Assembly (NCBI RefSeq): GCF_011038795.1
Contig: NZ_JAAKDU010000009.1
Location: forward strand, 1-64,000
From: Streptococcus tangpeifui
GTDB taxonomy: Bacteria; Bacillota; Bacilli; Lactobacillales; Streptococcaceae
DNA length: 64,000 bases
Direction of reading: 5' to 3'
Shown here one piece after another: positions 3,734-52,690 of the stretch (position 1 is the first letter of the stretch; each line of letters opens with the position of its first letter). A program made the position numbers and the translations under genes. The notes beneath the pieces are model-generated. The model did no database searches, was not told the origin of the DNA, and saw only the letters and a program-made list of their open reading frames with translations.

Positions 3734-4305
3734 TAGAAAAATCGGCTGGGATAAAAGGCCTGCCTCGTGTTAATTATTGTTAGATGGAACAGTTTGATAC
3801 GGTAGCTGGGACCTGCTGTCTTGAGCAATTGGGTCTTGTTTCTGCCTAAGCTATTCGATGTTCGATCACCAATGAGCCGAGTCGCTGTTGATTGGAAGTT
3901 CTTATTTAGGGCGTGTATTCTTATTTTCAGGCTGCTTTCAACAATCTAGTGGTTTTTTAATGACCATGCAAGAGTATGGCAACATGCTGAAGGTTAGGAG
4001 TAGAGCAAGCAAAGCTGCCGCGCCTTGAAACAAGAGAGTGACAGAAGAGGCCTGAGCCTTAACATAAGAGAGTGAGGAAAATCGGAATCGCTATTTCTGG
4101 TGATTTATCGATTTTTTATACGTCATTTTCAGATATTGCGATATTCATGGGTTAGGGCAGAGCCATCATGGCTGTTGTCCTACCTGTTTCATGCTGTTTT
4201 CCTATCTAGTTCTAGTCTTAGAAATCAACTATTTTACAGCTGCTGCTTAGGATGATACAATGAACTGATAGTATAACTTGATAAAAATAAAAATTAGGAG
4301 ATTCT
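3734..4305. other. Non-coding stretch between binding protein and permease
   Basis: No supported gene in 572 bases. It contains a pair of short direct repeats sharing AAGAGAGTGA (about 4031-4040 and 4062-4071) and, near its end, an AT-rich promoter-like region before the permease site TTAGGAGAT. A fragment with GTTGATTGG (about 3888) resembles the ends of a repeat module seen at 62.2 and 62.5 kb, but too little is shared to call a copy. Confidence 0.5.
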
Positions 4306-5214
4306 ATGTCAGAAACGAATAACTCACAAGAAGGGCTGAGTAAGTTCTTTAAAACAACTAGAGGAAAAATGGCTGGTTTCTTTATCGGCTTAATCCTTGT
4401 TATCCTGATTTTGATGCAGGTATGGGGTTATCTTATAAAAACAGGTCTCTATGACAAGTTTGTTAATACCTTGCCTGATGGAATGCTTTTTAGCGTACGC
4501 GCTGTTTTTGGTGCTATTCCTGATATTTTAAAGCATTTACCAATGACTTTGGGGCTGACGGTTTGGGGCTCTATCTTTGGCTTGATTTTGGCCTTGCTTT
4601 TTGCCATTGTCAAAATTAATCGAGTGCCTGTTCTCTACCAAATTCAGGCTTTCTTTGTCAGTTTTTTGCGGGGAACACCTATCTTGGTTCAGCTTATGTT
4701 GACCTATTACGGGATTCCGCTTTTATTGCGCTATATTAATATGAAGACCCATTCGGGTTGGAATATCAATAATGTCTCTCCACTGGTCTTTGCGGTTGTA
4801 GCCTTTGCTTTCAATGAAGCGGCTTATACCAGTGAGACTATTCGAGCAGCGATTCAGGCGGTTGATTCAGGTGAAATTGAGGCGGCCAAGAGTTTGGGAA
4901 TGACCAATGTTCAAATCTACCGTCGGGTTATTATTCCAAATGCAGCTGTTATCGCAACCCCAACCCTCATCAATACCTTGATTAGTCTGACCAAGGGAAC
5001 TTCTCTGGCCTTCAGTGCTGGTATTATTGAAATGTTTGCCCAAGCGAAGATTATCGGTGGCCGAGACTATCGCTATTTTGAACGTTACATTTCAGTTGCC
5101 CTGATTTATTGGATTGTCAGCATTATCATTGAAAATATTGGCCGTTATATTGAAAAGAGTATGGAAATTAAATCACCAGAAAATATTTCCGGAGAAGAAG
5201 GAGGCTTACGCTAA
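4306..5214 (+). CDS. Polar amino-acid ABC transporter permease
   Basis: 302 residues, HisM-type. A first membrane segment (about 22-44) is followed by a loop and the transport domain of about five segments with the EAA loop (FNEAAYTSETIRAAIQAVDSGEIEAAKSLGM, about 170-200), which contacts the ATPase. FLRGTPILVQLML is the conserved start of the domain. Ribosome site AGGAGAT precedes ATG. The stop overlaps the next start (TAATG), so permease and ATPase are translationally coupled. Amino-acid specificity is shared with the binding protein upstream and cannot be refined. Confidence 0.93.
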   Translation: MSETNNSQEGLSKFFKTTRGKMAGFFIGLILVILILMQVWGYLIKTGLYDKFVNTLPDGMLFSVRAVFGAIPDILKHLPMTLGLTVWGSIFGLILALLFAIVKINRVPVLYQIQAFFVSFLRGTPILVQLMLTYYGIPLLLRYINMKTHSGWNINNVSPLVFAVVAFAFNEAAYTSETIRAAIQAVDSGEIEAAKSLGMTNVQIYRRVIIPNAAVIATPTLINTLISLTKGTSLAFSAGIIEMFAQAKIIGGRDYRYFERYISVALIYWIVSIIIENIGRYIEKSMEIKSPENISGEEGGLR

Positions 5215-5957
5215 TGATCAAGATTAGAAATTTGACCAAAACCTTTTCCGGTCAAAAGGTCTTGGATGGCCTTGATCTGGAAATTGAAAAGGGACAGGTT
5301 ATCGCTCTCGTTGGTGCCTCTGGTGCTGGGAAATCGACCTTCTTACGCAGTATGAATTACTTGGAAGAAGCGGATTCTGGCACGATTGAGATTGATGATT
5401 TCAGGGTAGATTTTGAAACCATTACTAGGGAAGAAATCCTGACTCTGCGCCGCAAACTGGCCATGGTTTTTCAACAGTTCAACCTCTTTGAACGGCGGAC
5501 AGCTCTGGATAATGTCAAAGAAGGACTCAAGATTGTCCAAAAGATGCCCGATAAGGAAGCAACAGCTCTTGCAAAAGAGGAATTGCGGAAGGTCGGACTA
5601 GCTGATCGAGAAAATCATTACCCACGCCACCTCTCCGGCGGACAGAAGCAACGGGTGGCCTTGGCAAGGGCCCTGGCGATGAAGCCAGATGTTCTTCTTT
5701 TGGATGAACCGACTTCGGCTCTAGACCCTGAATTGGTAGGCGAAGTGGAAAAATCTATTGCTGATGCTGCTAAGACTGGCCAAACCATGGTTTTGGTCAG
5801 TCATGATATGAATTTTGTTGCTCAGGTAGCTGATAAAGTTCTTTTCTTAGAAAAGGGAAAAATTCTCGAGCAGGGAACGCCAGACCAGCTCTTCAACCAT
5901 CCAAAAGAGGAAAGAACTAAAGAATTTTTTGCTAGTTACAAAAAATCTTATGTTTGA
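5214..5957 (+). CDS. Polar amino-acid ABC transporter ATP-binding protein
   Basis: 247 residues, GlnQ/TcyC type. Walker A GASGAGKST (about 33-41), Q-loop FQQFNLF, signature LSGGQKQR (about 141-148), Walker B VLLLDEPTSALDP and switch His in VLVSHDMNF are complete, so the ATPase should be active. It shares its first base with the last base of the permease stop codon. It powers uptake with the permease and the lipoprotein encoded upstream. Confidence 0.95.
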   Translation: MIKIRNLTKTFSGQKVLDGLDLEIEKGQVIALVGASGAGKSTFLRSMNYLEEADSGTIEIDDFRVDFETITREEILTLRRKLAMVFQQFNLFERRTALDNVKEGLKIVQKMPDKEATALAKEELRKVGLADRENHYPRHLSGGQKQRVALARALAMKPDVLLLDEPTSALDPELVGEVEKSIADAAKTGQTMVLVSHDMNFVAQVADKVLFLEKGKILEQGTPDQLFNHPKEERTKEFFASYKKSYV

Positions 5958-6101
5958 TATAATAGGAATAAGTTTGAAGCTCGTTTGGCCAGTCAAGCGG
6001 GTTTTCTTGTGGATTCGGTCTCAATTGCTTGGAGAGCTGGGGCGTCTTTTACCTTGGTCAGTTCAAGTGGTTAGATTCTATTAAAGTGCCTAAGGTTTTT
6101 T

Positions 6102-6326
6102 ATGTTAGTAGATATTTTTAAATTTTATTTGCAAGGTCTATTTATGGCTATTGCCTTTGTTATTTTTGCCGTGATTGTCTGGCTGTCTTATCGGGCTCTC
6201 AAGTTAAAAGATAAGACGATCAAGGAGCGGCAAAATGCCCTTTATGATGGCATTATGATGGCTTTGATTTCTATTCCCATCCTATCCTTCGCTTTTATGG
6301 CTATTGTTTTGATGGTAAAGTCATAA
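6102..6326 (+). CDS. DUF4059 small membrane protein
   Basis: 74 residues with two hydrophobic segments (about 11-28 and 52-70) separated by a basic loop (RALKLKDKTIKERQ). It matches the streptococcal DUF4059 family, which is commonly found immediately upstream of trxB, as here (66-base gap). A weak AAGG site lies before the start. The function is not known. The orientation and spacing suggest transcription together with trxB. Confidence 0.75.
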   Translation: MLVDIFKFYLQGLFMAIAFVIFAVIVWLSYRALKLKDKTIKERQNALYDGIMMALISIPILSFAFMAIVLMVKS

Positions 6327-6391
6327 TAGTTGACCCTGTTGCACTTCTGGAGTAAACTAGGTCTACTAAAGATATCCTAAGGAGGAAAGAT

Positions 6392-7309
6392 ATGATTTAT
6401 GATACATTGGTGATTGGCTCTGGTCCTGGTGGTATGACCGCTGCTCTCTATGCTGGTCGTTCTAATCTCAAGGTTGGCTTGATTGAGCAAGGAGCACCTG
6501 GTGGTCAAATGAATAATACTTCAGATATTGAGAATTATCCAGGTTTTGAGACTATTTCTGGTCCAGACTTGTCTATGAAAATGTATGAGCCCTTGGAAAA
6601 ATTTGGTGTCGAAAATATTTATGGCATTGTTGAAAGGGTTGAAGATCACGGTGATTTCAAGCGGGTAATTGCAGGCGAAGATCACTATGATGCCAAAACC
6701 ATTATTTTAGCAACAGGTGCCAAACACCGTTTGGTTGGTGTTCCCGGTGAGCAGGAGTACAATAGCCGTGGGGTTTCTTACTGTGCGGTCTGTGATGGGG
6801 CTTTTTTCCGCAATCAAGATCTCTTGGTCATCGGTGGTGGCGACTCAGCGGTTGAAGAAGGAATCTACTTGACCCAGTTTGCTGATAAGGTGACTATTGT
6901 TCACCGCCGTGATGAATTGCGAGCGCAAAAAATTTTGCAGGATCGAGCTTTTGCTAATGATAAGATTGACTTCATCTGGGATTCTGTGGTTGAGGAAATC
7001 AAGGGTGATGATGTTAAGGTTCGCTCGGTTGACATCAAGAATGTTAAGACTGGGGAAGTGACTAACCATGAATTTGGCGGTGTTTTTGTTTATGTTGGTC
7101 TAGATCCAGTGTCCAGCATGATCAGTGATCTTGGGATTACCGATCAAGCAGGCTGGGTTATTACCGATGAGAAAATGAGGACTAACCGCTCAGGTATTTT
7201 TGCGATTGGTGATATTCGCCAGAAGGACCTGCGGCAGATTGCAACAGCTGTTGGCGATGGTGCTATTGCCGGTCAAGAAGTCTATAATTATATTACTGAG
7301 CAGGCTTAG
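6392..7309 (+). CDS. trxB: Thioredoxin-disulfide reductase
   Basis: 305 residues, typical for TrxB. N-terminal FAD site GSGPGGMTAALYAGR (about 8-22), second dinucleotide site VIGGGDSAVEEG (about 148-159) for NADPH, and the redox-active CAVC in VSYCAVCDGAFF (about 132-137) are all present. C-terminal FAD motif GIFAIGDIR is intact. It reduces thioredoxin with NADPH in the cytosol and is the main thiol-redox enzyme of streptococci. Strong site AAGGAGG precedes the ATG. Confidence 0.97.
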   Translation: MIYDTLVIGSGPGGMTAALYAGRSNLKVGLIEQGAPGGQMNNTSDIENYPGFETISGPDLSMKMYEPLEKFGVENIYGIVERVEDHGDFKRVIAGEDHYDAKTIILATGAKHRLVGVPGEQEYNSRGVSYCAVCDGAFFRNQDLLVIGGGDSAVEEGIYLTQFADKVTIVHRRDELRAQKILQDRAFANDKIDFIWDSVVEEIKGDDVKVRSVDIKNVKTGEVTNHEFGGVFVYVGLDPVSSMISDLGITDQAGWVITDEKMRTNRSGIFAIGDIRQKDLRQIATAVGDGAIAGQEVYNYITEQA

Positions 7310-7363
7310 GCATTACCCCAAAAGACTGGGGAACCGCTATTTGACAAGTATAATAGTAAAAGA

Positions 7364-7550
7364 TTAGGCAATGGCCTTGTTCCTCAGTTCAAGAGGAGCA
7401 AGGCCATTGTGCTTTTCTTGATAACGATAGTTAGTGTAAAAATGGATATAGGTATCAATATAAGTGACTAATTCCTCAAAAGTCTTGTAAGTGTTGAGTT
7501 GAGGGGTGTAGCACTCTTGAAGTGGTCGAAAAAGCTTCCAATCGATGTTT
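7364..7550 (-). pseudogene. C-terminal remnant of an IS3-family transposase (orfB)
   Basis: On the minus strand the end of an IS3/IS150-type integrase can be read: SFFDHFKS near 7540-7520, then, after one frameshift near 7510, a stretch ending NYRYQEKHNGLAPLELRNKAIA and TAA (7364-7366). HNGLAPLE-R-KA at the C-terminus is characteristic of streptococcal IS3-family transposases. The last codons coincide with a perfect inverted repeat (7369-7409). The rest of the element, including orfA and the terminal repeats, is not recognisable. Confidence 0.75.
7369..7409. terminator. Perfect hairpin at the transposase end, probable terminator
   Basis: CAATGGCCTTG and CAAGGCCATTG are perfectly complementary, with TCCT/AGGA extending the stem. 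On the plus strand it is followed by TGCTTTTCTT, so it could end the trxB transcript. Confidence 0.55.
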
Positions 7551-7684
7551 CTTCTTTGTACATATAGATGCTTGGTAAGAGACCAGTTTACATCCTAATC
7601 TTACTTGTTGTTTCGCTTTTGAGCCTTATCTAACCTTTTAGAGTAGGCCATTCTTTATTTATTATTGAAGACACTACTTTTCAA

Positions 7685-8143
7685 ATGTACAGCTCTAATC
7701 GGGAGAAACAAATAAAATTTACTAAAAGTAAATTAAAATCTGATGGTATAATAGGTTTTATAGAAAAGTTTTCTAATACAGACGCTAATGAATTTTTTAA
7801 ACGTGAACAAATTAAAGATATCTATTTTAAAAGACGTTTTTTCTCAGAAGAAGATATTTTCTTAAAGAAGAAAAATGTTTTATCTGATATGAATAACGGC
7901 CTTGTTACACTTGAACAATTTATAGATGCTTTATCGAAGTTTTTTGCCTATGCCGTGATTAACTGGAACTCTGGGAATTTCTATACACTTTATGCCTCTA
8001 ACAATAAAAACAATTTATTAAATTTTTTATCATATATGCCTTCCTCGTTAATACCTGATAAATATGTTCACATTGAACTTCCAACAGCATTATTAACTTT
8101 GAATAAAAGTGAAATAAAATATAGAACAATAAAGGAAAATTAA
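7685..8143 (+). CDS. Unrecognised AT-rich protein, possibly N-terminally truncated
   Basis: 152 residues by the first ATG. I do not recognise the family. The sequence is Lys-, Asn- and Phe-rich, predicted soluble, and clearly more AT-rich than the flanking genes, suggesting transfer. No ribosome site precedes the ATG. The frame stays open upstream to 7634 without a start codon, right after the transposase remnant, so the 5' end may have been lost when the IS inserted. The stop is one base before the ATG of a LysE-type exporter, so the two probably form an operon. Confidence 0.55.
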   Translation: MYSSNREKQIKFTKSKLKSDGIIGFIEKFSNTDANEFFKREQIKDIYFKRRFFSEEDIFLKKKNVLSDMNNGLVTLEQFIDALSKFFAYAVINWNSGNFYTLYASNNKNNLLNFLSYMPSSLIPDKYVHIELPTALLTLNKSEIKYRTIKEN

Positions 8144-8144
8144 A

Positions 8145-8765
8145 ATGGCAATATCAATCTGGGTTTCTTATGTTATAGCCTGTATTTTACTTATTTCTCC
8201 ACCAGGTCCAACTGTAACATACTTAATAACAACCAGTATGGTTCATGGGAAAAAAACTGCTTACGAAGTGGTATGGGGGAGTTTTTTTGGGGGATTAGTA
8301 TGTTTAGTCTTATCTTTTATTGGTATTGGAACTATACTCAATACATCGATTATCCTATATAGTCTTTTCAGAATTTTAGGGATAAGTTATTTATTATATT
8401 TAGGGATAAGAAGTTTATTAGAAATAATCAAAGACTCTAGTGTTGCGAGTCAGGAAATAGTTCCCCCCAAAAAAGGAGAAGGATTTAAAAATGGTTTTCT
8501 GCTTATCTTTTTAAATCCTAAGAATATTATTTTTTTTGCTTCTTTCTTACCACAATTTATTGATGAACAAAGTTCTCTCTATGCCCAAGTAATTATTTTG
8601 AGCGTAACTTATTTAGTAATTGGGCTGGTCAATGATTTTCTATACAGTTTTTTTGCTTCTCATATCGGCAAATTACTAGGGCAACATTCAGAAAAATGGA
8701 TAAACGGTATAGGAGGTTTAGCAATGGTACTATCAGCTATTATTGTGATCTTCCAAAATTTTTAA
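8145..8765 (+). CDS. LysE/RhtB-family amino-acid exporter
   Basis: 206 residues with about six membrane segments. N-terminal SPPGPTVTYLITTSMVHGKK (about 18-37) is the LysE/RhtB signature (PGP near the first helix). GFKNGFLLIFLNPKNIIFFASFLPQFI (about 109-135) is the second conserved block. Members export amino acids or derivatives such as homoserine, threonine or leucine. The substrate is unknown. Base composition is AT-rich like the partner gene upstream, consistent with joint acquisition. Confidence 0.88.
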   Translation: MAISIWVSYVIACILLISPPGPTVTYLITTSMVHGKKTAYEVVWGSFFGGLVCLVLSFIGIGTILNTSIILYSLFRILGISYLLYLGIRSLLEIIKDSSVASQEIVPPKKGEGFKNGFLLIFLNPKNIIFFASFLPQFIDEQSSLYAQVIILSVTYLVIGLVNDFLYSFFASHIGKLLGQHSEKWINGIGGLAMVLSAIIVIFQNF

Positions 8766-9222
8766 GTTCTCACTATATATTAGATAACTATATAAAGATA
8801 GAATATAAGGTGAAGAAGGTATTCAATCTAAGAAAACTATCTGGAGCTCTCTTCTAAGATTCATTATCATTGGAAAGTTACCCTGATTTGATAATTCAAA
8901 AACTTCGGTAAGTATTACAAAAGTGCTGTTATCACACTGGTTTACTGTGAAGAAAAATTTTCCAGCTGGTAGTCCACTTCTAATCAAAATGATATTGATA
9001 TTTTCTTTGTTGGCTCCTAGTTAACGGGGGCTAATGGATACTCTAATGGGTTATTGAGACGAGGGCTCCTAAGCATATGAACTTTAATAGTACTTCTCAA
9101 AAATGATTATAAGCTATAGCTGATAAGAGAAATAGAATTCCAAGATATTATTTCACTGCCCACTATGGGGGAGTATATCAATTCATTCCGTCTGGAGTGC
9201 TTTTTTCTTATTGTTCGAATTG
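8766..9222. other. Gene-free stretch before the amino-acid permease
   Basis: About 450 bases with stop codons in all frames and no product I can recognise. It may be decayed coding sequence associated with the accessory segment upstream. Confidence 0.4.
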
Positions 9223-9271
9223 TGCTATAATATTACCTATACTTCAAAAGGAGGAAATTCTTTGAACCTCC
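9223..9271 (+). promoter_or_regulatory. Extended -10 promoter and structured leader of the amino-acid permease
   Basis: TGCTATAAT (9223-9231) is an extended -10. The leader then carries a strong site AAAAGGAGG (9246-9254) that fits a TTG at 9262, not the permease ATG at 9308. GGAGG (9250-9254) is complementary to CCTCC (9267-9271), and a second small hairpin CCAGC/GCTGG follows. The layout could let translation of a short frame or an RNA switch control the permease, which has no site of its own. Confidence 0.5.
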
Positions 9272-9307
9272 AGCCTCTAAGCTGGCAGGTAAAGATGACA
9301 AGCTCAA

Positions 9308-10696
9308 ATGTCAGAACAACGTACAAACGGGGCAGATGTCGAAACGACGAAAAATGGTATGGATCGGGGATTGACCAACCGTCATGTCCAGATTATCGCC
9401 ATTGCCGGAACCATTGGGACAGGGCTCTTTCTGGGAGCTGGGAAGTCCATTCACCTGACGGGGCCTTCCATTGTCTTGGTTTATATCATCACAGGAATTT
9501 TTATGTACCTGATGATGCGAGGAATTGGGGAGATGCTTTTCCAAGATCCCGACCAACATACCTTTATTAACTTTATTACCAAGTACTTGGGACAGGGCTG
9601 GGGCTATTTCGCTGGCTGGTCCTACTGGATATCCTTGGTACTCTTAGGGATGGCAGAGTTGACTGCCATTGCTAAATATGTTCAATACTTCATTCCCAGC
9701 GCTCCCAGTTGGCTGATTCAGTTGGTCTTTCTCTTGATCCTCTGCGGTGTCAATGTCGTCGCCGTAGCTGTCTTTGGCGAAGTAGAGTTCTGGTTTGGGA
9801 TGATTAAGATCATTGCTATTCTAGCCTTGATTGTGACAGCTATTTTTATGGTTCTGACAGGTTTTCAGACTCCGGTTGGTCATGCCAGTCTAACCAATAT
9901 CTTCCATGGTTTTAATTTCTTTCCTTTGGGGATTGATCATTTCTTTATGGCTTTCCAAATGGTCTTCTTTGCCTATCAGGCTATTGAGTTTGTCGGGATT
10001 ACAACATCTGAAACTAAGAATCCTAGAGAGGTTCTGCCTAAGGCCATTCATGCTATTCCAAGTCGAATTATGTTCTTCTATGTAGGAGCCTTGATTGCTA
10101 TTATGTCAATCTTCCCTTGGAGGCAGCTGCCTGATGACCAGTCCCCTTTTGTTATGGTATTTAAGTTAGCCGGTGTCAACTGGGCAGCTGCTCTTATCAA
10201 CTTTGTGGTTTTGACAGCAGCAGCCTCCTCCCTCAATTCTATGCTCTATTCCAGCGGCCGTCATCTCTACCAATTGGCCAGAGAAACGCCTGCCTTGGAT
10301 CGCTACAAACTTAACCGTTTGTCTCGGACCAATGTTCCGCAAAATGCTATTTTTACCTCAGCTGGATTTATGGTTATTGCGGCTATTCTCAGCGTAGTTC
10401 CATGGATTTCCGATAGTTTTACCGTTATCACCTCATCTTCTTCAGGGGTTTACATTGCTATCTATGCCCTTACTATGCTGGCCCATCTACGCTATCGCAA
10501 ATCGCAAGACTTTATGGCGAATGGCTTTCTCATGCCAGCCTATAAGGTGCTTAATCCCTTGACTATTGCCTTCTTTGGCTTTATCTATTTGTCACTCTTT
10601 CTGCAACAGTCAACCTTTATTGGAGCAGTCGGCTCGACCCTTTGGATTTTGGTCATGGGAACCATTTGTCAAATGGTTACGCGTAAGAATGATTAA
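9308..10696 (+). CDS. Amino-acid permease, APC superfamily
   Basis: 462 residues with about twelve membrane segments. N-terminal GLTNRHVQIIAIAGTIGTGLFLGAG is the AAT-family signature (CycA, AnsP, ProY, RocE relatives). A hydrophilic N-terminus of about 25 residues precedes it. ISLVLLGMAELTAIAKYVQY and QAIEFVGITTSETKNPREVLPKAI are further conserved blocks. It should import an amino acid such as Ala/Ser/Gly by proton symport; the exact substrate is not determinable. The assigned ATG lacks a ribosome site, and ATG 9359 (MDRGLTNRH) is a possible alternative start. A good terminator follows at 10847. Confidence 0.88.
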   Translation: MSEQRTNGADVETTKNGMDRGLTNRHVQIIAIAGTIGTGLFLGAGKSIHLTGPSIVLVYIITGIFMYLMMRGIGEMLFQDPDQHTFINFITKYLGQGWGYFAGWSYWISLVLLGMAELTAIAKYVQYFIPSAPSWLIQLVFLLILCGVNVVAVAVFGEVEFWFGMIKIIAILALIVTAIFMVLTGFQTPVGHASLTNIFHGFNFFPLGIDHFFMAFQMVFFAYQAIEFVGITTSETKNPREVLPKAIHAIPSRIMFFYVGALIAIMSIFPWRQLPDDQSPFVMVFKLAGVNWAAALINFVVLTAAASSLNSMLYSSGRHLYQLARETPALDRYKLNRLSRTNVPQNAIFTSAGFMVIAAILSVVPWISDSFTVITSSSSGVYIAIYALTMLAHLRYRKSQDFMANGFLMPAYKVLNPLTIAFFGFIYLSLFLQQSTFIGAVGSTLWILVMGTICQMVTRKND

Positions 10697-42610: not shown

Positions 42611-42763
42611 CTAAAACAGTTCATAGAGAGCCAACAAGACTGTTATCAACAAGACAGATGTGGAAGATAAGGCTTTTAATTTCTTGTTTTTAGAAAACTT
42701 GATAAAAATGGTATCTAGAACAACCAAAATTATCCAAAGGATAAAAATAATCACATATTTCAT
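42611..42763 (-). CDS. Small two-segment membrane protein (possible immunity protein)
   Basis: 50 residues: an N-terminal hydrophobic segment (MKYVIIFILWIILVVLDTIF), a basic turn (KFSKNKKLK) and a second segment (SVLLITVLLALYELF). The two-helix, basic-turn plan fits small bacteriocin immunity proteins, which is inference. A truncated paralogue with a one-base deletion in its T run is at 44413-44449. AGGAGA lies about 20 bases upstream within the preceding bacteriocin relic, too far for a normal site. Confidence 0.5.
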   Translation of the reverse strand: MKYVIIFILWIILVVLDTIFIKFSKNKKLKALSSTSVLLITVLLALYELF

Positions 42764-42784: not shown

Positions 42785-42868
42785 CTCCTGCTCTATAACT
42801 TAAAACTGAGAGCCATATTACCTTCAAACGATCCAGCTCCTGAAGGCCCTGAATCATTATCAAAAAAT
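42785..42868 (-). pseudogene. C-terminal relic of a bacteriocin gene
   Basis: Minus strand reads SGAGSFEGNMAL, then after a shift VLSYRAGD, close to the 44457-44560 relic ending VLGYRTGDLFD. Leader and start are missing. It lies between a terminator and a small membrane-protein gene. Confidence 0.45.
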
Positions 42869-42895
42869 CCCCGACACCAATACGGAGGCGGGGAA
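42866..42895 (-). terminator. Terminator of the second bacteriocin unit
   Basis: On the minus strand CCCCG and CGGGG enclose CCTCCGTATTGGTGT (itself weakly paired), followed by ATTTTTT. A related terminator with nearly the same loop is at 45148-45177. Confidence 0.7.
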
Positions 42896-42935: not shown

Positions 42936-43286
42936 TTATTTTTTTAAAAACAAATAAATGTTGATTAGCATTAGTAAAATGAAAAATACAACCGATAAAC
43001 TCTTTGATATAGGCCACAAAACATAGGTTAGCGATACTGTACAAATTATCAAAGCAATTGCAGTAGCAATTTTTTCGTCATAGTTCTTTTTTTCCATAAA
43101 ATCATTACTTTGCTTTTCAATAGTTTTATCCGAAAAAAATTGCAAAAGATTAACAGCTGTGATAGCAATAAATGCTGTTACTGCAATAATCTTTTGGTCT
43201 GACCAAAAACCTATGAGAAAGGAAAAAGCGACTAAAATCCAAGCTAATAGATCTACTATCCTTCTCAGTTTCCTATCTTTTATCAT
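42936..43286 (-). CDS. Four-segment membrane protein, putative bacteriocin immunity
   Basis: 116 residues. Hydrophobic stretches at about 13-28, 31-48, 74-91 and 95-112; basic N-terminus MIKDRKLRRI. It starts 17 bases after the stop of a double-glycine peptide gene, with GGAG upstream, and is followed by a terminator, so the pair forms a peptide-immunity unit. A decayed paralogue (AWLMMAIASTIVLWSDHK against AWILVAFSFLIGFWSDQK) is at 44785-44945. No named family is recognised. Confidence 0.7.
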   Translation of the reverse strand: MIKDRKLRRIVDLLAWILVAFSFLIGFWSDQKIIAVTAFIAITAVNLLQFFSDKTIEKQSNDFMEKKNYDEKIATAIALIICTVSLTYVLWPISKSLSVVFFILLMLINIYLFLKK

Positions 43287-43303: not shown

Positions 43304-43537
43304 TCAATGTCTGCTATAATAAATAGCAGCAGCACCTGCACAAGCTTCTGCACCAATATATAGAGCTGCACCAACCGAATTAGTATATGCTATCCTTGCT
43401 GCTGCATAAGGGATCATTGCAAGAATAGAAGTTACAACTCCCTCTCCATTAAATCCGCCCTCTAAATTTGCTAGTGTATCCATATCCGCTACTTCAAATT
43501 TATCAAAAGCTGTTGTGTCTAGGAATACAATGTTCAT
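43304..43537 (-). CDS. Double-glycine bacteriocin precursor
   Basis: 77 residues. Leader of 28 residues ending LANLEGG, with the spaced hydrophobic pattern typical of ComC/bacteriocin leaders. Mature part of 49 residues is hydrophobic, Ala/Gly-rich (GAALYIGAEACAGAAAIYY), with GxxxA-type helix motifs as in class II peptides. The leader plan matches that of 46064-46333 (MN..LD..AF..F..AD...L....GG). Export would need a C39-peptidase ABC transporter, not present in the window. The likely immunity gene is next. Confidence 0.82.
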   Translation of the reverse strand: MNIVFLDTTAFDKFEVADMDTLANLEGGFNGEGVVTSILAMIPYAAARIAYTNSVGAALYIGAEACAGAAAIYYSRH

Positions 43538-43677: not shown

Positions 43678-43845
43678 TTATTTTCTTTTTTGCTTATATA
43701 TTATATAAAAAATCGTAGCATATCCTACAAGGATAATAAATGTTACAGTAGAAATGAGTTCGGAGTGAGCCCAATTTAAGTAAAATCCCACCCCACAAAG
43801 TATTAAATAAGACACATAGCAAAGTAAAGGAATTAACTTTTTCAT
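43678..43845 (-). CDS. Small two-segment membrane protein, putative immunity (paralogue of 45622-45792)
   Basis: 55 residues from ATG 43845 (another ATG at 43854). Sequence MKKLIPLLCYVSYLILCGVG... is clearly related to the 56-residue protein at 45622-45792 (both LLCYVSYLILCG, YLNW and IGY/VGYxT). Two membrane segments and a basic end. No good ribosome site is visible. Its partner peptide gene upstream (43978-44110) is broken. Confidence 0.6.
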   Translation of the reverse strand: MKKLIPLLCYVSYLILCGVGFYLNWAHSELISTVTFIILVGYATIFYIIYKQKRK

Positions 43846-43878
43846 GGTAATCATAAATTCAAGTAGCTTACAATCTAG

Positions 43879-44153: not shown

Positions 44154-44195
44154 TATTAAAGAGAGATGATTTAAGTTTTAGAGGCTCTCTTTATT
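44154..44195 (-). terminator. Terminator after the 58-residue membrane-protein gene
   Basis: On the minus strand AAAGAGAG and CTCTCTTT enclose about 20 bases. The stop of the 58-residue gene (44178) lies within the loop. Confidence 0.5.
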
Positions 44196-44354
44196 TGTTG
44201 TAGAAAAAAGATAGTAAATTATTACTAAGGCAGAAGCAGATATATTTACAAAAAAAGCAGTTATTTTAGCTATTTTTGTACCAAACTTTTTTGAAAATTT
44301 ACTAGCAGTACTAATAGAAAAAAGCCAAAAAAGAGCAATTATTAGTTCTTTCAT
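44178..44354 (-). CDS. Small two-segment membrane protein in the bacteriocin region
   Basis: 58 residues, MKELIIALFWLFSISTASKF, basic turn SKKFGTKIAK, then a second hydrophobic segment ending YYLFSTTNKESL. Helix-basic turn-helix plan as in the other small proteins here, but without clear sequence similarity to them. A weak AGGT site lies upstream. Function unknown; immunity is inferred from context only. Confidence 0.5.
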   Translation of the reverse strand: MKELIIALFWLFSISTASKFSKKFGTKIAKITAFFVNISASALVIIYYLFSTTNKESL

Positions 44355-44682: not shown

Positions 44683-44784
44683 TTTAGTTATAAGTCGGCA
44701 TCCACCAGAGCTGACAACTAAACACTTAGATCAAATAAGAATAAGAAATTATCTGATTTGGTTACTAGGTATTTTAACCTTTTT

Positions 44785-44945
44785 TACTTACAAAAAATTA
44801 CAAAAGATTAATAGCTGTAATTGCAGTAAATACCACAATCGCCATCATTTTATGATCTGACCATAAAACTATTGTACTTGCTATCGCCATCATTAACCAA
44901 GCTATTAATACTACTACTCTTCTTACTTAATCTGTTATTTTATCT
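44785..44945 (-). pseudogene. Decayed paralogue of the 116-residue putative immunity protein
   Basis: Minus strand reads RRVVVLIAWLMMAIASTIVL then WSDHKMMAIVVFTAITAINLL before a stop; it aligns with RRIVDLLAWILVAF, FWSDQKIIAVTAFIAITAVNLL of 42936-43286. The start and last half are lost. Confidence 0.7.
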
Positions 44946-45112: not shown

Positions 45113-45147
45113 AAATCCAGCTCCTAACGACCCTAAATCATTATAAA

Positions 45148-45178
45148 AAGGCCCCTGACACCATGATGGAGGCAGGGA
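45148..45178 (-). terminator. Terminator of bacteriocin unit 1
   Basis: On the minus strand CCCTG and CAGGG around CCTCCATCATGGTGT, followed by GCCTTTTTAT. Related in sequence to 42866-42895; the flanks also match, so the two ends are duplicated segments. Confidence 0.7.
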
Positions 45179-45192
45179 AATCCAAGTGTGGA

Positions 45193-45372
45193 CTACTTTT
45201 TTCTAAAAAGTTGAAAAAACCTTATTGAGTAAATGATTATTATACTTAAAACCGCTAATGCCAGTAAGATAAACACAAACTTTCCAAAATGCTTGTTTGG
45301 CGAACAAACAGCAACAAGGGCTAATAAAACGATTAAATAGATCAGGAAATTTTCTTTTAAAAAATTTTTCAT
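45193..45372 (-). CDS. Small two-segment membrane protein, putative immunity
   Basis: 59 residues: MKNFLKENFLIYLIVLLALV, short turn SPNKHFGKF, then VFILLALAVLSIIIIYSIRF and a basic end. It follows the broken peptide gene by eight bases, so it probably is, or was, its immunity gene. No ribosome site beyond the coupled end of the preceding gene is seen. A longer frame on the same strand overlapping it is out of register and spurious. Confidence 0.6.
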   Translation of the reverse strand: MKNFLKENFLIYLIVLLALVAVCSPNKHFGKFVFILLALAVLSIIIIYSIRFFQLFRKK

Positions 45373-45380
45373 AACAATAA

Positions 45381-45619
45381 TTAAAGCTGTGAACCAGCAA
45401 TACCACAGGTAGTTCCTACTACCATTCCCTCACCAACACCGCCAAGAACAGCACCTACAACACTTCCAGCTCCTGGTTCTACAGCTGTACCGGCTATTAA
45501 ACCTTTACCCGCACTGTCAATTACTCCACCTGCAAAGCCTATCGCAGCTCTCAAGCATTAAATTCACCGCCAATTTCTACAAGATTTTCTTCAAAATCAC
45601 TAAATGCGATAGAATTCAT
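45381..45619 (-). pseudogene. Frameshifted double-glycine bacteriocin gene
   Basis: GGAGGT precedes ATG 45619. The leader MNSIAFSDFEENLVEIGG is intact, then the frame ends at TGA after GEFNA. In the next frame the mature part continues: AAIGFAGGVIDSAGKGLIAG, then GAGSVVGAVLGGVGEGMVVG and TAA 45381, with several GxxxG helix motifs. One single-base change would restore an approximately 79-residue class II precursor. Confidence 0.75.
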
Positions 45620-45621
45620 GT

Positions 45622-45792
45622 CTACCTCCAATTTTGCTTACGGAAGATTATATATAGAACTGTACCATATCCTATAAATATAATAAACTCTATGATAGAC
45701 CTCAGTTTAGAATACTCCCAATTTAGGTATAAAAATATCCCACAGAGTATCAAATAGCTTACATAACAAAGCAGGAGAACTAAATTACGCAT
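45622..45792 (-). CDS. Small two-segment membrane protein, putative immunity
   Basis: 56 residues, MRNLVLLLCYVSYLILCGIF, YLNWEYSKLR, then IIEFIIFIGYGTVLYIIF and a basic end. Three bases separate its ATG from the stop of the peptide gene upstream, suggesting translational coupling. Its end overlaps the ribosome site of the next peptide gene. A paralogue is at 43678-43845. Immunity for the two-peptide unit upstream is the simplest inference. Confidence 0.68.
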   Translation of the reverse strand: MRNLVLLLCYVSYLILCGIFLYLNWEYSKLRSIIEFIIFIGYGTVLYIIFRKQNWR

Positions 45793-45795
45793 AAG

Positions 45796-46053
45796 CTAAT
45801 TACCCGATAAATATTGATATCCATCATAAATAAAATTAGCAGTTGTCAATACAGCAGTTGGAACTGTAAATAAAGCTGTTGGAGGAGCAGTGACCCCAGA
45901 TACAGCAACAGCAAAATCAGCGGCCACGACATCCCACAAGTCATTTTGAAGGGTTTTTATGCTAGTTCCTCCTCTCAATTCAGCAAGGTAATCACACGGA
46001 GCTACCTGAAAATAATTACTGGCACTCGCATTTAATCCATTTGTATCTCTCAT
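45796..46053 (-). CDS. Double-glycine bacteriocin precursor, second peptide
   Basis: 85 residues. A leader of 29 residues ends CDYLAELRGG. The mature part of 56 residues is hydrophobic (VVAADFAVAVSGVTAPPTAL) and ends YDGYQYLSGN. Site GAGGT precedes the ATG. It begins ten bases after the first peptide gene, the standard layout of two-peptide class IIb bacteriocins. The leader N-terminus (MRDTNGLNASAS) is unusual, so the start may have drifted. Confidence 0.72.
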   Translation of the reverse strand: MRDTNGLNASASNYFQVAPCDYLAELRGGTSIKTLQNDLWDVVAADFAVAVSGVTAPPTALFTVPTAVLTTANFIYDGYQYLSGN

Positions 46054-46063
46054 AACTTTACCT

Positions 46064-46333
46064 CTAATTAATTAATTTTTTAATATTGTTATTCGTGTCT
46101 AGTTCATTCCATTCATTATAAGTATAGTAGGCCCCAATCGCAACGCCCACCAAAGCTAACGGTGGGCAAGCAGCTGCAACAGCATATGCGCCACCGTATA
46201 CACCTAACGCTTTAATTCCATCTGCAATACCAGAATGCCAATCAACTTCGCCACCAGTTATTTCAGAAAGAGCAGTAATATCTGCTATCCCAAAGTTTTC
46301 AAAAGCCATTGAGTCCAAAGCTAATGTGTTCAT
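46064..46333 (-). CDS. Double-glycine bacteriocin precursor, first peptide
   Basis: 89 residues. Leader of 28 residues (MNTLALDSMAFENFGIADIT...GG) and a mature part of 61 residues with GVYGGAYAVAAACPPLALVG and GVAIGAYYTYNEW; GxxxG-type spacing supports a helix-helix partner. AAAGGAG precedes ATG, and a good promoter stands 30 bases upstream. It heads the minus-strand unit. There is no transporter gene, so export must use a ComA/NlmT-like system elsewhere. Confidence 0.83.
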   Translation of the reverse strand: MNTLALDSMAFENFGIADITALSEITGGEVDWHSGIADGIKALGVYGGAYAVAAACPPLALVGVAIGAYYTYNEWNELDTNNNIKKLIN

Positions 46334-46364
46334 AACAATTCTCCTTTAAAAAAATTATGCGATT

Positions 46365-46393
46365 ATTGTAACGCTTAAAATTTACTTATGCAA
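46365..46393 (-). promoter_or_regulatory. Promoter of bacteriocin unit 1
   Basis: Minus strand TTGCAT (46393-46388), 17-base spacer, TACAAT (46370-46365), 32 bases before the first peptide ATG. Confidence 0.7.
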
Positions 46394-46399
46394 GGGGAA

Positions 46400-46419
46400 T
46401 CAGGAGGATTTTGTAATAT
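46400..46419 (-). promoter_or_regulatory. Shared upstream motif of bacteriocin unit 1
   Basis: ATATTACA, seven bases, CCTGA on the minus strand, six bases upstream of the -35 box. Same motif and spacing as 43646-43665. Confidence 0.42.
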
Positions 46420-46681
46420 CTAACATAAATAGTAATAAATGGAAAAATAAAGGCAATTTTTCTGATAGTTATCATAAAGCGAAAAATCAGTGGTTTGAGC
46501 AGTGATTTGGCTAAAACTAGCTCGTTTGCAGAGATCTAGAAATTAACTCCATAATTTCTGTAGTTAGGAACCCTACTATGAAAATCATGGAGCTTTTGAG
46601 TCCTCTATCTATACGTCAAGGCCCTGTCTATCTTTGTTTTTCCTTAGATATTAGAATTAGCAGTACAGTTTATAAGATGAC

Positions 46682-52487: not shown

Positions 52488-52690
52488 TGCTATAATACTC
52501 GTCAAGAAAGAGGGGCTTATAGGCATTTCTCAAGCGAGCTCAGGATAGTGAAAGCTGGGTGTGGTGCGATAAGCAACTGGCGCTTTCTGTAACAATCTAT
52601 ATAAAAATGAAGTAATAAATTAGGGTGGAACCGCGTTTTGACGCCCCTATGTCAGCTGACATGGGAGTGGAGAGCGTGGTTCTTTTTGTA
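52488..52690 (+). ncRNA. T-box leader (tRNA-Gly sensing) of glyQS
   Basis: TGCTATAAT (52488-52496) is the promoter. The leader has a stem I with a distal-loop stretch GAGCTCAGGATAGTGAAAGC (about 52537-52556), a candidate Gly specifier GGC at 52579-52581, the invariant T-box AGGGTGGAACCGCG (52622-52635), and a terminator in which AACCGCG pairs with CGTGGTT followed by CTTTTT (to 52687). Uncharged tRNA-Gly would stabilise the antiterminator and allow glyQS transcription. The exact specifier is inferred. Confidence 0.9.

Follow-up and report, generated by a model that had tools for sequence, protein, structure and literature searches.

Whether a run of small genes on a streptococcal contig encodes a working two-peptide bacteriocin together with its own protection is the question raised by this locus. 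The window, which is the whole stretch of 64,000 nucleotides that was analysed, is contig C21 of a 2.25 Mb Streptococcus genome related to the tooth bacterium S. sobrinus. Our preferred reading, which we hold with a probability of roughly two thirds, is that of a double-glycine class II bacteriocin-immunity cassette, in which an 89- and an 85-residue precursor would act jointly, a remote C39 transporter would export them and a 56-residue protein would confer immunity. Judged by comparison with related genomes, this cassette is real, probably functional and part of a mosaic bacteriocin island.

Gene order and double-glycine precursors

A sequence-only reading of this DNA had described five genes, and all of them were found where it had placed them, on the minus strand and in the order 89-residue precursor, 85-residue precursor, 56-residue protein, broken third precursor and 59-residue protein. 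The first gene (46064..46333) encodes a 28-residue double-glycine leader and a 61-residue mature part of net charge -3, and the second (45796..46053) a 29-residue double-glycine leader and a 56-residue mature part of the same net charge. The third gene (45622..45792) encodes the 56-residue two-helix membrane protein, the fourth (45381..45619) is the broken double-glycine precursor and the fifth (45193..45372) encodes the 59-residue two-helix membrane protein. The coupling of genes that had been proposed is real, since the stop codon of the 85-residue gene is separated from the start of the 56-residue gene by 3 bases and the stop codon of the latter from the start of the third precursor by 2 bases. 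A good ribosome site precedes the 89-residue precursor, and the first two ribosome sites of the operon are intact.

When we quantified the double-glycine leader pattern among the ATG open reading frames of 50-130 codons, it was present in 3 of 97 frames of the window, all within 43.3-46.3 kb, compared with 2 of 2462 frames in 30 simulated sequences of 64 kb (second-order Markov). The three frames are the 89- and 85-residue precursors and an intact 77-residue precursor of the same family (43304..43537, minus strand). At positions -15, -12, -7 and -4 the leaders carry the hydrophobic residues F/A/L/I (89 residues) and F/A/L/L (85 residues), as expected for leaders of this type. Chance open reading frames are ruled out by the rate of leaders relative to the simulation, together with the dN and dS values given below.

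The peptides had been said to resemble no bacteriocin that could be named, and this agrees with our searches of Pfam and NCBIfam, in which nothing passed the cut-offs for ten proteins of the window. GxxxG motifs had been assigned to both mature parts; that of the 89-residue precursor carries the motif three times, but that of the 85-residue precursor lacks it and has four small-xxx-small motifs (G, A or S). With one genome per species compared, the 89-residue protein matched in 7 of 147 genomes including its own, and the matches in the 6 other genomes were partial (35-47% identity). The 85-residue protein matched in 4 of 284 genomes at E<=0.01, its own included, and outside its own locus these matches were tail fragments or weak. 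Among the genomes searched, none other than this one was found to contain the intact 89/85 pair; a scan of the genome contigs with the 89-residue protein confirmed no relative, and a tblastn search of plasmids with this protein gave no match.

Most leaders of the precursor family are 28 residues long and share a conserved N-terminal block, and the family profile gave 13 matches in this genome, its own members included. When the leader was removed, the 89-residue precursor was recovered marginally (E 0.0069; best shuffled sequence 0.14) and the 85-residue precursor was not recovered (E 1.8; best shuffled sequence 0.31). Four further members of the 12 in the profile also failed, three of them unlisted at E 10 and one at E 5.8. 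Since several members fail once it is removed, the leader does most of the grouping in this family.

The two-helix proteins and the probable remains of a second cassette

The description of the 56-residue protein as two helices was borne out by hydropathy and by an AlphaFold2 model (residues 2-25 and 29-55; mean pLDDT 83, with an alignment of three window proteins). It matched nothing listed in Pfam or NCBIfam, and it shares with other small proteins encoded directly after double-glycine precursors a W-x-x-S-K-like pattern between the helices, of which W alone is invariant in nine aligned proteins. A family profile built without this protein and its paralogue recovered it at E 3.6e-5 (best shuffled sequence 0.0099); in the same test the paralogue reached E 0.0059, which is near the shuffled level. 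A member from the genome G036 that was absent from the first profile scored E 2.4e-10. The profile gave 10 matches in the present genome, its own members included, and it matched 14 of 284 genomes of the genus, four of them with one weak match each. Our literature search, from whose coverage subscription journals were mostly missing, found no paper on the W-x-x-S-K two-helix family.

In five operons (the window, contig C14 of the same genome, contig C27 of S. sobrinus, G036 and G043/G163), one gene of this family follows an adjacent pair of precursors. A pair is not obligatory, since single precursors with one immunity unit occur as well: in the window the 77-residue precursor is directly followed by a 116-residue protein that contains two copies of the unit (42936..43286, minus strand), and locus L094 has an 82-residue precursor of this kind.

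The family also lies close to exporters. Of 27 family units in 10 genomes, 12 (from 8 genomes) have a C39 exporter gene at a distance of at most 10 kb; the expected number is 0.64, and a count of 12 was attained in 0 of 20000 simulations. Left out of this test were 4 of 45 immunity rows (weak matches in G063, G150, G256 and G281, in which exporters were not searched) and 3 of 28 C39 rows (fragments). The test is partly non-independent, the profile having contained members from this genome, G036, G043 and G097 (S. sobrinus); in six genomes without profile members, 8 of 15 units were near an exporter. In the present genome family units and C39 genes are on separate contigs, and in G036 the distance exceeds 500 kb.

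Thus described, the 56-residue protein is a small membrane protein genetically linked to precursors, and judged by its position, hydropathy, model and profile match it is probably the immunity protein of the preceding pair. Comparison with its paralogue indicated purifying selection (dN 0.348, dS 1.669). The protein is identical in G036, and the two genes are separated by 3 synonymous changes in 171 bases (dN 0, dS 0.089), whereas the 59-residue gene is 83.3% identical to its G036 counterpart. This near-identity fits a recent exchange of the 56-residue segment with G036, with strong constraint as the alternative. G036 represents a sister species: a 780-residue open reading frame, which we take to be MutS2-like, is 87.6% identical in DNA.

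The third precursor is broken, as had been reported, by a frameshift and short deletions relative to the intact gene of G036; it is intact in S. sobrinus as well. At the corresponding place in G036, beside a 382-residue open reading frame that is presumably nagA-like, we found a different precursor, a tail fragment of the 85-residue gene, the identical 56-residue protein, the intact third precursor and then a relative of the 59-residue protein. S. sobrinus has an intact pair, listed with 94 and 91 residues, and directly after it a relative of the 59-residue protein. These arrangements make it probable that the broken gene was one member of another peptide pair, to whose type the 59-residue gene would belong as a probable immunity gene. 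The 59-residue protein was rejected as a partner of the 89/85 pair for the same reason, its relatives following the third-precursor type in both species. The link is not exclusive, because elsewhere in S. sobrinus a 97-residue precursor and another small protein precede a 59-residue relative. Its best database scores are below the cut-offs (NCBIfam 19.1 bits against 40; Pfam 10.9 against 24.4). Purifying selection was indicated for the third precursor between G036 and S. sobrinus (dN 0.087, dS 0.824) and for the 59-residue gene against G036 (dN 0.147, dS 0.381). A second copy of the block of 56-residue gene, broken third precursor and 59-residue gene is located on contig C14, with 675 of 681 aligned bases identical and the same lesions, so that the break either predates the duplication or was copied along.

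Downstream of the operon, the minus strand carries further pieces of this kind. They include a paralogue of the 56-residue protein (43678..43854), an orphan immunity-like gene with no intact precursor adjoining, an orphan two-helix protein (44178..44354) whose S. sobrinus relative comes after the 97-residue double-glycine precursor, a degenerate copy of the immunity unit with one internal stop (44780..44926) and an orphan immunity-like gene for a 50-residue two-helix protein (42611..42763). Between 42.6 and 45.2 kb, four small two-helix open reading frames lack an intact precursor and precursor remnants are present. Taken together, these data suggest a mosaic bacteriocin-immunity island, some parts of which look active and others decayed. 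A second bacteriocin island was observed on contig C14 (locus L018, 129000-142000 of that contig; positions 4286-9965 of the locus); it contains an intact pair of 80- and 77-residue precursors, several immunity units, the copy of the 56/59 block and a C39 transporter gene truncated after its start. Elsewhere in the window, the sRNA SpR19 (RF02447) was detected at 52523-52643 with 101.7 bits, and the genes downstream of it look like glycyl-tRNA synthetase.

Control elements, apparent cassette exchange and candidate exporters

The operon had been credited with a promoter and a terminator. The likely promoter (TTGCAT-17-TACAAT, 46365..46393, minus strand) is present slightly beyond the span originally proposed; it was absent from the output of the consensus scan, where it is below threshold, and the alignments show it to be conserved between species. 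It is part of a conserved upstream region of about 130-150 bp (46334..46480, minus strand) that is common to precursor operons of related species. A search of 284 genomes of the genus located this block at 10 sites in 8 genomes (E<=0.001), and its copies mostly lie just 5' of double-glycine precursors or their remnants. In G203, a copy is located about 0.3 kb 5' of an exporter gene; it was assigned from the sequence that follows and from a core of 11 bases with one mismatch, and this core is also present at unrelated sites. Visual inspection of the block revealed no recognisable cin-box, and nothing in the data points to induction by competence. The window's genome contains seven LytTR matches.

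For the terminator, a hairpin followed by a T run (45145..45177, minus strand) is present and plausible and is repeated after other cassettes of the island, but it was not listed by the scan and folds no better than shuffled sequences (z -0.68; 47 of 200 shuffles as good). A repeated element containing such a hairpin and T run closes several cassettes (window positions 45115-45179 and 42831-42895; loci L018, L035, L044 and L046), and it may be a site of cassette recombination.

Eight other loci gave nine DNA matches to the promoter-leader region. All of them stop at some point from 46304 to 46259, inside the 28-codon leader (46333-46250), and five of the nine also span the upstream block. Promoter and leader are shared between loci, and the mature peptides beyond them differ. 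The match of the 85- and 56-residue genes with G036 begins within the 85-residue gene, at 45888. Because the match boundaries lie there, cassettes appear to recombine inside leaders and precursors. At two loci, the beginning of a C39 gene is joined to the 3' part of the 85-residue gene (L018, about 7220-7420; L035, about 8350-8560). The junction is present in contig C14 of this genome (L018) and in G036, and we regard it as a probable shared recombination scar.

No transporter is linked to the operon, as had been stated, and C39 genes are absent from contig C21. The genome has three of them, one on contig C1 and two on contig C6, with open frames without stops. Next to that on C1 are genes for an accessory protein, a LytTR response regulator and a histidine kinase. 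The 767-residue C6 transporter shares 82-84% identity with its counterparts at the G043, G163, G203, G042 and G236 loci, which have the same leader type and the immunity family, and 69% with the C1 transporter; in a tree, it groups with transporters of related peptide loci. The 763-residue C6 transporter is in the same group and 78% identical, but has a leader of the Blp type next to it. A leader matrix favored the C6 type over the Blp/NlmT type by +15.2 bits for the 85-residue and +3.0 bits for the 89-residue precursor, although even with the better-fitting type the 85-residue leader reached a low 14.8 bits. Leave-one-out tests of the matrix were correct for 12 of 12 and 13 of 13 leaders, and these hand-picked sets contain near-identical leaders. 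The leader of the G036 third precursor was negative on both matrices in the register used. These data make the 767-residue C6 transporter the likely candidate exporter of the 89/85 peptides. A distant ComAB/NlmTE-like exporter, as first proposed, is possible, but the leaders appear to fit a C6-type C39 transporter better, that of the 89-residue precursor by no more than 3 bits. In five other species (L029, L088, L089, L090 and L091), a precursor-immunity-exporter locus adjoins the same genes, presumably of the L-ascorbate type, and an accessory protein is present at four of these loci (L088-L091).

Alternative readings and comparison with known systems

In our preferred reading, the conserved promoter would drive the 89- and 85-residue precursors and the 56-residue protein. 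The leaders would be cleaved, and the mature peptides of 61 and 56 residues exported, by a C39 peptidase ABC transporter from another part of the genome, most likely the 767-residue C6 protein. The two peptides would probably act jointly on the membrane of rival streptococci, while the 56-residue two-helix protein would guard the producer. A second peptide pair with its own immunity gene would survive only as the frameshifted third precursor and the 59-residue gene. The proposal of bacteriocin precursors, immunity genes and a remote exporter is well supported by comparison, namely by the shared immunity family, the clustering with C39 genes, the intact relative of the third precursor and purifying selection.

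Joint action of the two peptides needs a closer look. GxxxG-type motifs in both peptides are a criterion of class IIb, whose peptides are typically cationic. Here, the motif is confined to the 89-residue peptide and both peptides are anionic, as were 16 of the 20 peptides for which charge was computed, these two included. Moreover, the mature 85-residue part falls outside the family profile, and single precursors with one immunity unit exist in the window (77/116 residues) and in L094 (82 residues). Two independent one-peptide bacteriocins might therefore share one operon, with the 56-residue protein providing immunity to one or both; we consider this unlikely, since a pair with one immunity gene recurs in five distinct operons, and the two-peptide nature is likely in spite of the missing motif and the charge.

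A second way to read the locus is as a decaying, inactive island, in which the precursors are relics and the immunity genes have been retained as an orphan defence against the bacteriocins of neighbours. The broken third precursor, the precursor remnants and the four two-helix frames without an intact precursor at 42.6-45.2 kb are consistent with this, as is the reduction of the 85-residue gene to a tail beside an intact 56-residue gene in G036 and on C14. There is also a parallel in the pneumococcal blp locus, where the immunity gene pncF downstream of a truncated blpK still protects (PMC6422914). Yet both precursors, the promoter, the first two ribosome sites and the coupling are intact here and the three C39 transporter genes have open frames, so that decay appears unlikely to us. 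The possibility that the 89/85 peptides are pheromones and not killers seems very improbable. Pheromone peptides are usually shorter than mature parts of 61 and 56 residues. The interval from 42.1 to 46.7 kb has no open reading frame of at least 130 residues and hence lacks a kinase or typical regulator, and the paired two-helix protein behaves as an exchanged, orphan-retained immunity gene. Points in its favor are the anionic character of the peptides and the export of pheromones, too, by C39 transporters, as described in PMC7018657. The odds that we give to the preferred reading and to these alternatives overlap and do not add up to one.

Returning to the joint-action cassette, we propose tentatively, with a little less than even confidence, that sobrinus-like streptococci may have a dispersed, clade-restricted bacteriocin regulon made of plug-in cassettes. 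In it, a fixed promoter and leader would be joined to ever-changing peptide pairs, the unnamed two-helix W-x-x-S-K immunity family would be traded between species, and the C39 exporter would be able to stand under the same upstream element. The immunity family, with its short pattern and frequent proximity to exporters, would offer a handle on precursors missed by annotation, and the module boundaries inside leaders would make leader swapping between species directly testable. If the proposal is true, the sobrinus branch has a bacteriocin arsenal of its own, even though S. sobrinus DSM 20742 was reported without mutacin-like genes on the basis of blast searches with known mutacins, new types being beyond that method (PMC3751929). 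The S. sobrinus precursor loci described here would be such new types.

The kind of system is known, since it would belong to the double-glycine class II bacteriocins with co-transcribed immunity, and the present peptide and protector families are unnamed in Pfam and NCBIfam. The match to Bacteriocin_IIc (PF10439) is weak, with 17.5 bits (E 0.0042), 13.9 bits (E 0.054) and 12.4 bits for the 89-, 85- and 77-residue precursors, all under the curated cut-off of 27.1. In S. mutans, the mutacin operons are dispersed relative to NlmTE. Like the peptides discussed here, these mutacins are double-glycine bacteriocins whose exporter is unlinked to each operon (PMC3751929). The pneumococcal blp (pneumocin) locus, with the two-peptide bacteriocin BlpIJ and BlpU4/5 and with BlpK and PncF, has a co-acting pair, as is proposed here, together with co-transcribed immunity and variable cassettes (PMC6422914). 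In contrast to blp, the window locus has neither exporter nor regulator, and most leaders of its family have 28 residues and a conserved N-terminal block, the comparison being one by description. The pneumococcal rtg system (RtgAB) is likewise a further C39 exporter with its own co-regulated double-glycine peptides and immunity-like small genes; its leader is recognised via the N-terminal end, and the function of its peptides was not shown there (PMC7018657). In contrast to rtg, reading through the present loci turned up no Rgg gene, the two systems having been set side by side by description only.
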